DNA of 64,000 nucleotides from Deltaproteobacteria bacterium HGW-Deltaproteobacteria-8 (GTDB lineage Bacteria; Desulfobacterota; Desulfovibrionia; Desulfovibrionales; Desulfovibrionaceae): positions 62,001-126,000 of the forward strand of contig PHAR01000008.1 of NCBI GenBank assembly GCA_002840405.1. Reading direction: 5' to 3'. A program made the translations under genes and the position numbers. A model generated the notes under the pieces. The model saw only the letters and a program-made list of their open reading frames with translations. It was not told where the DNA came from and did not search any database. Positions 16,006 to 52,845 of this stretch are shown piece by piece. Each line of letters opens with the position of its first letter. Position 1 is the stretch's first letter.

Positions 16006-16225
16006 CGTACGAACCACCTGAAAGGCCCGCGCCTCTGTTGCACACCAGGCTGGGGTGCTATTTTTGCGCCCCAAGCCCACCTTGTCGTTCACTCCCCCGC
16101 TTGCAGATCAATACAACGCCGCAGTGCAGCGGGAGCAGATATCAGCTCCCTTTACATTCTGCCGAAGAAGGCGGAGTATTCCAGAATGGGCAAAAGCCCG
16201 CATCCTGCAACGAGGAGCAGAACAT

Positions 16226-16606
16226 ATGGGTTACGAGACATCCTTCACCAAGATAGAGAACGAGCTGACGCCGGACTTTCGCGACCGCATGAAGGGCGCT
16301 GAAGGCGTGGCGGACGTGCAGAAGATCTACGCCGAATTCGTGCGCGAGATGCTCAGCCGCCTCACCGGCGCCGAGGTCGTGCTCGACGAGGGCGATGTGC
16401 GGGTCGACCCGGAGGTCGAGGGCGGCATTGTTCTCGGCCCAGGCATCACCCAGAACCCGGACTTCCATAAATTCTTCGAGCGCTCGGACCTTCCGGACAT
16501 CCTGCGCCGCCAGGGCCAGCACGCTGCCAACAAAATCACGCATCTGGACGGCCACTCCGAACGCGATCAGGCCAAGATTTTCCCCAGGCCCAACCGCAGG
16601 GGCTAG
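16226..16606 (+). CDS. Hypothetical protein, 126 residues
   Basis: I do not recognise this family. The protein is acidic and soluble, with a helical N-terminal half (ADVQKIYAEFVREMLSRL) and a conserved-looking VVLDEGDVRVDPEVEGGIVLGPG segment that could form strands, and ends in a basic NRRG. No signal peptide or membrane helix is seen. The ATG at 16226 is preferred over upstream in-frame starts because GAGGAG at 16212-16217 is well spaced. A clear terminator follows at 16664-16706. The 220-bp gap before it (16006-16225) contains only a small GGGGTGC/GCGCCCC hairpin at about 16053-16073 that may end the beta-lactamase transcript. Confidence 0.6.
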   Translation: MGYETSFTKIENELTPDFRDRMKGAEGVADVQKIYAEFVREMLSRLTGAEVVLDEGDVRVDPEVEGGIVLGPGITQNPDFHKFFERSDLPDILRRQGQHAANKITHLDGHSERDQAKIFPRPNRRG

Positions 16607-49910: not shown

Positions 49911-49942
49911 AAAAAGCCCCCAGCTCCCGCCAGGGGCTTTCT
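49911..49942 (-). terminator. Terminator after the tandem small membrane protein genes
   Basis: Minus strand AAAGCCCC, loop, GGGGGCTTTTT. It follows the stop at 49965 by 22 bp. Confidence 0.8.
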
Positions 49943-49964
49943 CATGCGCCGTCCACGCTCCGGC

Positions 49965-50048
49965 TCAGAGCAGCCAGTAGTAGATGATCAGAAAGATAAC
50001 GATGCAAAACGGGACGGCGATGTACAGAATCAGTTCGCGCTTGTTCAT
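49965..50048 (-). CDS. 27-residue single-helix membrane protein B
   Basis: The frame encodes MNKRELILYIAVPFCIVIFL and seven more residues (IIYYWLL). A basic cap (NKRE) is followed by one membrane helix. GGGAGG lies 5 nt before the ATG, a near-ideal ribosome site. A paralogue of exactly the same length lies 70 bp upstream, and a terminator follows, so this is probably a real gene and not chance. Function unknown; size and topology resemble small regulatory or complex-stabilising membrane peptides. It is too short for usual gene callers. Confidence 0.7.
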   Translation of the reverse strand: MNKRELILYIAVPFCIVIFLIIYYWLL

Positions 50049-50118
50049 GTCAGCCTCCCATGTCCTGCCCTGAGAATTCTGCGGGGCTGGTCGGCCCTGG
50101 CGCTATGCGCACAGCAGC

Positions 50119-50202
50119 CTAGAACCACCATGCGTAAACAACGAGAAACAACAAGGCGTTGACCGGAACGGCGACGTACAGCAACAATTCACGCTTGGTC
50201 AT
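50119..50202 (-). CDS. 27-residue single-helix membrane protein A (paralogue of the next)
   Basis: The frame encodes MTKRELLLYVAVPVNALLFL plus VVYAWWF. It shares the pattern M-x-K-R-E-L-x-L-Y-[IV]-A-V-P and the aromatic end with the downstream paralogue, including the same length of 27. The ribosome site is a G-run (GGGGGG) 6 nt upstream. A promoter at 50224-50251 and a preceding terminator make the pair an independent unit. No function can be assigned. Confidence 0.7.
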   Translation of the reverse strand: MTKRELLLYVAVPVNALLFLVVYAWWF

Positions 50203-50223
50203 GGCGGCCCCCCGTTTACGGAC

Positions 50224-50251
50224 GTTATACAGCTTTGCTGATGTGTTGCAA
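50224..50251 (-). promoter_or_regulatory. Promoter of the tandem small membrane protein genes
   Basis: Minus strand TTGCAA (50251-50246), 16 bp, TATAAC (50229-50224), placed 22 bp before the first small ATG. Confidence 0.55.
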
Positions 50252-50276: not shown

Positions 50277-50312
50277 AAAAAAGCCCCCGCTCCTTGCCGG
50301 AACGGGGGCTTG
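50277..50312 (-). terminator. Rho-independent terminator of the ald operon
   Basis: Minus strand AAGCCCCCGTTCC, loop, GGAGCGGGGGCTTTTTT. It follows the ald stop by about 27 bp. Confidence 0.88.
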
Positions 50313-50338: not shown

Positions 50339-51445
50339 CTACGCCAGGGCCTGGGCCGGGGTGATGGCGGGGATGCCGAGGGCTTCGCCCACGGCCGGGC
50401 AGGTCAGCTTGCCCTTGTAGGTGTTCAGGCCCATCAGCAGCGCCGGGTCCTGGCGCAGGGCGTCGATGCCCTTGGCGGCCAGCTTGAGGGCATAGGGCAG
50501 GGTCTGGTTGACCAGGGCAAACGTGCTGGTGCGGGGCACGGCGCCGGGCATGTTGGCCACGCCGTAGTGCACCACGCCGTCCACCACATAGGTCGGCTTG
50601 TCGTGGGTCGTGGCCTTGGTGGTCTCGATGCAGCCGCCCTGGTCCACAGCCACGTCGACGATGACCGAGCCTTCGCGCATGGTGCCGATCATCTCGCGGG
50701 TGACGAGCTTGGGGGCCTTGGCGCCCACCACGAGCACGGCGCCGATGACGAGGTCGGCCTCCTTCACTGCGGCGCGGATATTGGGCTCGGTGCTGCTCAT
50801 GGTGATGATGCGGCTGCCGAAGATGTCGTCCAGGTACTGCAGGCGGCTGTGGGAGAGGTCCAGCACGGTGACGCGCGCGCCCATGCCCACGGCGATCTTG
50901 ACGGCATTGGTGCCGACCACGCCGCCGCCCAGGACCACGACATTGGCCGGGGCCACGCCGGGAACGCCGCCCAGCAGCATGCCACATCCGCCCTGGTTCT
51001 TCTCCAGGTAATGCGCGCCCACCTGGGTGGCCATGCGCCCGGCCACTTCGCTCATGGGCAAAAGCAGCGGCAGGGAGCGGTCAGCCAGCTGCACGGTCTC
51101 ATAGGCCACGCCCGTGGTTCCGGCGGCCAGCAGGGCCTTGGTCTGGGCCTCGTCCGCCGCCAGGTGCAGGTAGGTGAACAGCAGCAGGTCCGGGCGCAGG
51201 TACTTGTACTCTGCGGCCATGGGCTCCTTGACCTTGATGACCATCTCGGCGGCCCAGGCCTCGGCAGCGGTGCACATCTTGGCTCCGGCCGCGGCGTACT
51301 CGGCGTCAGGCAGGCCCGAGCCCACGCCCGCGCCGTTCTCCACCAGAACCGTGTGGCCGCGGCGGACAAGGGTCTCCACGGCGCCGGGGGTCATGGACAC
51401 CCGGTCCTCCAGCGTCTTGATCTCCTTGGGGATACCGATGATCAT
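50339..51445 (-). CDS. ald: Alanine dehydrogenase
   Basis: A 368-residue NAD-dependent enzyme that interconverts alanine and pyruvate plus ammonia. It starts [21 protein letters not shown] with the pyruvate-binding Arg, has the catalytic Lys/His in [26 protein letters not shown], and the Rossmann motif [22 protein letters not shown] near 170. The C terminus [16 protein letters not shown] is typical. GAGGAATAGTC precedes the ATG. An Lrp/AsnC-type regulator gene ends 2 bp upstream, so the two are one operon and the regulator is probably alanine-responsive. Confidence 0.95.
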
Positions 51446-51447
51446 GA

Positions 51448-51954
51448 CTATTCCTCGCTTTTGGTTGAGTTGTTTTCAGCATACCAGGTGCGTGCGCCCC
51501 TGGGCAGGGGAATCCACTTGCGCCGTGCCTTCATGACCACAAAGGACTCGCTGGAGGCGACGCCGCCCACGCCGGACAAATCGCGGTCCAGAAAATCGTA
51601 GAGCCCGGAGATGTCCTCCGTGATGACGATCTCCACCAGAATATCGTAACGCCCGGTGACCACGGCCGCCCAGTTCACGTTGGGCAGTTCGGCGATCTCC
51701 GAGAGCTTCTTGTCCAGCTGCATGTGGCTCTTGAGCTTGATGCCCACCAGGGCCACGGTGAGGCCATTGACCTGGAACGGGTCCACCAGCCCGGCCACGC
51801 GCAGGAGGCCCTGGGCGATGAGGCTCTTCATGCGCGTGCGCACGGTGGGCGCGGTGACGCCCAGGCGCTCGGCCAGCTCACCGGCGCCGGCCTGTCCGTC
51901 CTCGGCCAGGGCGGCCACGATGCGACGGTCCGCAACATCGAGAGTTTTCTTCAT
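51448..51954 (-). CDS. Lrp/AsnC-family regulator of alanine dehydrogenase
   Basis: A 168-residue regulator. An N-terminal winged helix-turn-helix ([41 protein letters not shown]) precedes the RAM ligand-binding domain ([19 protein letters not shown] to [10 protein letters not shown]). The ATG at 51954 follows AAGGGG at 8 nt; the ATG at 51984 lacks a site. It shares a transcript with ald, and such regulators often activate ald in response to alanine. The promoter region upstream is AT-rich, as Lrp sites are. Confidence 0.9.
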
Positions 51955-52003
51955 ACGCGCATCCCCTTGCCTGATTTTTTCCATATCGAAAATGCTCAAG
52001 CTA

Positions 52004-52155: not shown

Positions 52156-52845
52156 GTGGCGCCTGAAGTACGTCTGCTTTCCGTGGCCGAGATCGCCCGC
52201 AGGCTGGGTGTGCCCGAGTCCACCGTGCACTACTGGAAGAACCGCTTCGCCCAGCACCTGCCCAGCCAAGGCTCGGGCCGGCAGAAGCGCTTCCGGGCCG
52301 AGGCCGTGGACGTGTTCCGCGTCATCGCCGAGATGTTCAGCCTGGGCCACAGCAGCCAGGACGTCATGGAGGCCCTGGGCAAGCGCTTCCCGCTCACCGC
52401 GTCCCTTGAGGGCGACCCCAACGCCGCCGGGACCGACGCGCCTTTCCTGCATCGCGAGTGCGCGCAAAACAACGGCCAGGACCAGCACAACCCTGCGGCC
52501 CTGGCCGACACAGCCCTGCGCATGGCCGCAGTCATCGGGCAGGAAATCGCCCGCAGCATCGGCGAAGGCCTGCGCCGCATCGGCGGGCAGCCCCAACTGG
52601 AGGGGCAAGACCTTGTGGCCCTGCCCGCCCTGGACACCGAGCAGCTCGACGCCATCAAGAGCGCCGTGGACCAGAGCTGCACGCGCCTGGACGCGCAAAG
52701 CGGCGAGGTGGCGCGCATGGCCGAGGAGAACGCCGAGCTCAAGACCAAGCTCACGGTGCTCGAAACCGAGCTGGTGCGCCTGCGCAAGGACCGCAGAGAG
52801 ATGGAGAAGTACCTCCTTGACAAGATCAAAACCATGTCTACTTAA
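52156..52845 (+). CDS. MerR-like HTH protein with C-terminal coiled coil
   Basis: A 229-residue protein. Residues about 8-75 form a MerR-type winged helix (LSVAEIARRLGVPESTVHYWKNRF, then RFRAEAVDVFRVIAEMF). A variable middle (85-150) and a long coiled coil (about 165-225: EQLDAIKSAVDQSCTRL through ENAELKTKLTVLETELVRLRKDRREMEKYLL) follow. No ligand-binding cysteines or effector domain are visible. It starts at a GTG (52156) with CAGGAGG upstream. The target is unknown; DNA binding and dimerisation are inferred. Confidence 0.75.
   Translation: MAPEVRLLSVAEIARRLGVPESTVHYWKNRFAQHLPSQGSGRQKRFRAEAVDVFRVIAEMFSLGHSSQDVMEALGKRFPLTASLEGDPNAAGTDAPFLHRECAQNNGQDQHNPAALADTALRMAAVIGQEIARSIGEGLRRIGGQPQLEGQDLVALPALDTEQLDAIKSAVDQSCTRLDAQSGEVARMAEENAELKTKLTVLETELVRLRKDRREMEKYLLDKIKTMST

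Follow-up and report, generated by a model that had tools for sequence, protein, structure and literature searches.

On the minus strand of the 64,000-nucleotide stretch of DNA analyzed here (the window), between ald and a gene that we take to be topA, lie two open reading frames of 27 codons plus a stop: p1 (50119-50202), whose product MTKRELLLYVAVPVNALLFLVVYAWWF has a single predicted membrane span, and its paralogue p2 (49965-50048), which encodes MNKRELILYIAVPFCIVIFLIIYYWLL. The two products are identical at 14 of 27 residues. The window has 915 frames that run from start to stop over 20-40 aa, and among the 20,134 non-overlapping pairs of the same length scored from them p1/p2 had the highest BLOSUM62 score, 83 against 46 for the runner-up, so their likeness is not due to chance. 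They also rank as the top two in hydrophobicity among 229 window ORFs of 20-45 aa. Fifth among these 229 is another short hydrophobic frame, MSRNPYVLLLVAGCGLLPILEYSAFFGRM, at 16152-16241 on the minus strand.

The pair is preceded by a sigma70-like promoter, TTGCAA-N16-TATAAC (50224-50251, minus strand), identified both by pattern and by consensus score, whose -10 box ends 21 nt upstream of the p1 ATG. The p2 frame has the ribosome-binding site GGGAGG (50054-50059, minus strand) 5 nt before its ATG, a site that is kept before p2 of the related genome G008; the corresponding purine-rich stretch before p1, GGGGGG (50208-50213, minus strand, read from the sequence), is poorer. An intrinsic terminator follows p2 (49911-49942, minus strand), consisting of a 14-pair stem and a U-run, with a fold of -25.5 kcal/mol (z -4.24 against 200 shuffles). 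Upstream, the unit is bounded by the terminator of ald (50281-50311, minus strand), found by a stock terminator scan, and ald itself (50339-51445, minus strand) encodes alanine dehydrogenase (NCBIfam TIGR00518, 531 bits against a cut-off of 392). The stock scan listed neither the p1-p2 promoter, its rule being that a -10 box must end in T, nor the p2 terminator. An earlier note on this DNA had described two minus-strand frames of exactly 27 codons as paralogues, one of them with a near-ideal GGGAGG site, bounded by the ald terminator and their own terminator and served by a promoter; our analysis of the locus bore out this description throughout.

We searched each peptide against 59 genomes and a nine-row profile against 15 genomes of the genus, Humidesulfovibrio. 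This gave nine copies in six of the 15 genus genomes (the carriers): the window's own genome (G000), G002, G004, G008, G011, and G013. All nine copies are 27 codons long with no indel, and the frame-breaking indels that the earlier note had named, for close strains, as a possible refutation were absent from all six genomes. Residues M1, R4, L8, Y9, P13, Y23, and W25 are invariant; the pair K3 and R4 is present in eight of the nine copies and N15 in seven, and the C terminus carries no charge. Four copies are of the p1 type (G000 p1, G002, G008 p1, and G004 p2), and G008 p2 matches the window's p2 at 22 of 27 residues. No copy was found in the remaining nine genomes of the genus (G001, G003, G005, G006, G007, G009, G010, G012, and G014), four of which are at least 99% complete and the others 81-86%. 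In eleven stretches from these nine genomes, blastn (E 0.1) found no remnant and tblastn gave one 10-residue match at E 0.55; G001 offers only 701 nt after ald before its contig ends, and for G014 the ald stop was not located by script and the region after ald was not inspected by eye.

Outside the genus, profile searches (A1 and A2) gave nothing at E < 0.012 in samples of 247 family, 297 order, and 297 phylum genomes, which overlap and the first two of which include the genus itself. Eleven of the weaker loci (E 0.012-0.6) were read and rejected as partial matches within longer frames or as frames without the signature. The sole non-genus match of the contig scan, L067 from Kiritimatiellae (57% over 21 residues), falls within what appears by eye to be a hydrolase-like protein and was taken as chance. 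Among viral contigs, 25 stretches fit the pattern and none was confirmed. Plasmids gave no match to p1 and two Rhizobium matches to p2 at E 6, and phages, searched with p1 only, gave two matches at E 10 within lysin genes; these, too, were taken as chance. The nine copies matched nothing in NCBIfam or PADLOC, their best E values were 0.052 in Pfam (under the cut-off) and 0.092 in PHROGs, and a profile search of the PDB gave one 10-residue match with a whole-sequence E of 0.23, which is not meaningful. Literature searches on the genus and on small 27-amino-acid transmembrane proteins of Desulfovibrio turned up nothing on the ald-p1-p2 locus. The p1/p2 family is new, while single-span small membrane proteins as a general kind are already known.

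Conservation of this family, as sampled here, is shallow and confined to one clade of the genus. The conservation in relatives that the earlier note proposed to check held for the nine copies in six genomes, and nine of the 15 genus genomes lack the genes. Such a range is typical, because most microprotein clusters described in Enterobacteriaceae are likewise genus-specific (∼88% of the Entero67K clusters at 50% identity, as reported in PMC11188072). The two sets share an intergenic location, hydrophobic products, purifying selection, and genus-level depth; p1/p2 differ in belonging to another bacterial group, in forming paralogous pairs, and in their own conserved promoter and invariant length.

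Substitutions among the four p1-type copies depended on frame. Pooled pN/pS was 0.22 in the sense frame and 0.96, 2.54, 0.98, 4.02, and 0.64 in the five remaining frames, with 34, 9, and 63 changes at the three codon positions in order and pS of 0.37-0.73. The earlier note had proposed a Ka/Ks-type check, and sense pN/pS was below 1 in all eight close pairs: 0.03-0.31 in seven (Fisher P 0.0059 to 9e-7) and 0.38 in the eighth (Fisher P 0.073). G008 p1 and G004 p2 encode proteins identical at 27 of 27 residues from DNA that is 83% identical. For the p2 frame, the test consists of one pair with 13 changes, G000 p2 versus G008 p2, in which sense pN/pS was 0.26 (Fisher P 0.0058) and one antisense frame gave 0.17. 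Over all 36 pairs, values ran as high as 1.56 (G002 versus G013), so the test speaks for close pairs only; the divergent G004 copy gave 0.43-1.07 against the other eight, and hence constraint is not demonstrated for that copy. As judged by these ratios, close orthologues are under purifying selection. We also considered as a coding alternative an antisense ORF of 72 aa (49944-50162, plus strand). The codon-aligned antisense frame is without stops in all nine copies, and it was rejected on pN/pS values of 0.98 (p1) and 0.92 (p2) against 0.22 and 0.26 in the sense frame. The exact length conservation and the frame-specific pN/pS of p1 support the view of the earlier note that these are real proteins, and we conclude that p1 and p2 are very probably genuine protein-coding genes.

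The promoter is conserved together with the frames. Each of the seven promoter-proximal copies is preceded by TTGC[AC][AT]-N16-TAT (N18 in G011), and 18-21 nt separate the end of the -10 box from the ATG. Scoring against the consensus (at least 8 of 12) recovers six of these seven promoters, 46-49 nt ahead of the ATG, and misses that of the upstream G004 copy, whose -10 box is degenerate. Upstream of the second copies in G000 and G008, neither the pattern (within 75 nt) nor the score (within 110 nt) gave such a promoter, as would be expected if p1-p2 were a two-gene unit. A regulon sharing the p1-p2 promoter was considered and discarded: with up to three mismatches, the consensus occurs once in its own genome, at its own site. 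Five of the six carriers have a hairpin after their last copy, with a U-run that reads as good in G000, G004, and G013 and poor in G002 and G011; none was found after G008 p2.

Downstream of ald, where the genes lie in all six carriers, the arrangement varies. In G002, ∼900 nt and a SnoaL-like gene separate ald from the copy. In G000 and G008, p1 and p2 share a single unit. In G004 each of the two genes has its own promoter and the divergent copy comes first; G002, G011, and G013 have one copy each, with ald and the copy on the same contig. The tandem pair seen by the earlier note is present in the same order in two carriers, the window's own genome included, but is not fixed, three carriers having one copy. 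The next gene is topA, in the same direction, in G000 and G008, and topA follows after ∼700 nt in G011; downstream genes assigned by Pfam are convergent in G002 (Fic/Doc and MazE-like), G004 (PAS-GGDEF), and G013 (acyltransferase). Because both the pairing and the downstream neighbor are variable, neither defines the function. On the predicted signals, p1 and p2 would be transcribed together as a unit of two genes, independently of ald and topA. The ald-topA stretch is a variable insertion site in the genus, with differing genes in G002, G004, G013, and G012; the G012 interval (L098) holds a low-GC3 gene and, by eye, Fic-like and PAS-GGDEF-like frames. Upstream of ald, the window has genes for an Lrp/AsnC-type regulator (51448-51999, minus strand) and, beyond it, a MerR-type regulator (52156-52845, plus strand), both assigned by Pfam. 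An Lrp-like frame was seen by eye before ald in four of the five other carrier loci (the gap in G011 is too short).

We used topA to place these copies in the history of the genus. In a tree of 14 genomes (in G014 no topA match reached the cut-off, and G011 contributed 426 of 815 residues), the six carriers and the non-carrier G012 split from the other seven with support of 0.964. The simplest reading of the sequences would be one origin in the carrier clade, an early duplication, and losses that include G012, whose ald-topA interval is occupied by other genes. The family may have been born from non-coding sequence or gained from an unsampled source. The window's ald is nearest to that of the non-carriers G001 and G009 (92.7-94.0%) and stands apart from the ald of the other carriers (support 0.958), and it is carriers that have the topA nearest to the window's (G004, 95%). 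It is likely that recombination took place between ald and the small genes. Similar sequence directly after ald was seen by eye in G012 and G007 (L077 and L079), possibly reflecting transfer between distant members of the genus; in G012 this stretch lies in a low-GC3 opposite-strand frame that resembles, by eye, a restriction-enzyme subunit.

All nine copies combine a length of 27 residues, well within the bound of about 50 for single-span small membrane proteins, with one predicted 19-residue hydrophobic core (Kyte-Doolittle 2.15-2.95 over 19 residues), an octanol sum of -11.5 to -18.6, and a helical moment of 0.04-0.16. The low moment favors a spanning helix over an amphipathic surface peptide, and the core, together with the invariant Y23 and W25, is in keeping with the one membrane helix and aromatic end described in the earlier note. 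Net charge is +1 in eight copies and 0 in the ninth. By the positive-inside rule, the positively charged end of a membrane protein stays cytoplasmic, and K3/R4, the uncharged C terminus, and the aromatic end accordingly suggest that the products are N-in/C-out single-span helices. The M-x-K-R-E end would then be cytoplasmic, and the Tyr/Trp end would lie at the inner membrane's outer face.

We favor, with moderate confidence and ahead of a toxin-like function, the interpretation that p1 and p2 act by binding a larger membrane protein. The helix would make lateral contact with a transporter, a respiratory complex, or a sensor, probably through a face comprising the invariant P13, the frequent N15, and the aromatic end, and this contact would steady the larger protein or set its activity, as AcrZ or MgtS do. 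p1 and p2 would be diverged versions that are partly interchangeable, since some relatives keep only one. Varying copy number (one or two) and the nine of 15 genus genomes without the genes suggest that the function is dispensable. Counting against a membrane partner is the fact that the sole constant neighbor is ald, which has its own terminator and whose product is, as far as known, a soluble enzyme. KdpF and CydX are precedents for short membrane proteins that tune a larger partner in the membrane. AcrZ (PMC7267776) and MgtS and MgtU (PMC12719787) are described as acting in the same way. Like all of these, p1 and p2 are short, have one membrane helix, and have no known catalytic activity; no match to a family model or PDB chain links p1 and p2 to them, and the known proteins are backed by experiment.

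A peptide that disturbs the membrane would share much of these sequence features. One rival reading is that p1 and p2 act on the membrane as stress peptides or as type I toxin-like peptides, in the manner of TisB, DinQ, or YohP, and lower its potential when they are made, whether or not an antisense RNA is involved. Small size, one span, tandem paralogues, and patchy occurrence all fit. The type I toxin DinQ is also a 27-aa protein with one span (PMC3567139), as is Escherichia coli YohP, which is non-lethal (PMC12719787), and Ldr toxins occur in tandem (PMC4147584); p1 and p2 thus share with DinQ and other type I toxins a length class, hydrophobicity, and a single span. The likeness to YohP is one of description and not of alignment: YohP dimerises via a glycine motif and is described as mainly N-out/C-in, possibly dual (PMC12719787), whereas p1 and p2 have no glycine and a K-R N terminus, with charges that suggest the opposite orientation. 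Evidence on an antisense RNA points both ways. An antisense promoter-like site lies at nearly the same place in G000 p1 (9 of 12) and G011 (8 of 12), where the ends of the -10 boxes are 14 and 15 nt inside the gene, but the other seven of nine copies lack a site there (8 of 12, 110 nt on each side), although a promoter scan cannot by itself exclude an antisense RNA. The pS of the p1-type copies is high, so that no overlapping RNA seems constrained, and Rfam had no match in the window. Hok, LdrD, and divergent toxins have long leaders that are targeted by antisense RNA (PMC4147584), and the leader here, as deduced from the promoter with start sites unmapped, is only ∼10-15 nt, which weakens the claim to a type I system. 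We give a toxin-like or YohP-like action a low but real probability.

Three further explanations fare worse. Equal-length paralogues side by side could be a leaderless two-peptide bacteriocin-like pair that the cell secretes and that acts on its neighbors. Leaderless two-peptide bacteriocins are cationic and amphipathic and have exporter or immunity genes nearby; here the net charge is +1 or 0, the helical moment is very low, and no exporter or immunity gene was recognized beside the unit among frames of at least 110 aa read in five carriers (six of these carriers' proteins were also scanned by Pfam). With three of the six carriers holding a single copy as well, we regard this as very unlikely. 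Still less probable is a role as a leader peptide, in which translation would govern the terminator ahead of topA. The order p1-p2 and then topA in the same direction, in the window and in G008, with a terminator between them in the window, would suit such a role, but the next gene in G002, G004, and G013 is convergent and is not topA, and selection extends over the whole protein and not a few codons. We give equally little credence to the idea that the frames are non-coding, being either a conserved small RNA or chance ORFs: expression of p1 and p2 is a prediction from sequence, yet the distribution of changes over codon positions in the four p1-type copies, the frame-specific pN/pS of p1, and the exact conservation of length all speak against it.

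The biology of p1 and p2 is not yet surprising, as many genus-specific single-span microproteins have been described (PMC11188072). What the comparative evidence adds is that, in a GC-rich sulfate reducer, 27-codon ORFs under the usual annotation limit are very probably true genes served by a promoter of their own. The signature M-x-[KM]-R-[ED]-x-x-L-Y-x-x-x-P...Y-x-W, the fixed length, and the near-fixed promoter spacing could be used in annotation. A bolder and rather doubtful proposal is that the family was born in one subclade, in the variable space after ald, and then duplicated and split into the p1 and p2 helices, which in the window and in G008 would either form a minimal two-helix membrane complex with each other or join a partner that they share. 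If the family did arise in the clade, it would be a young family of membrane proteins whose origin could be traced step by step, and a tractable case of recent bacterial gene birth and duplication.
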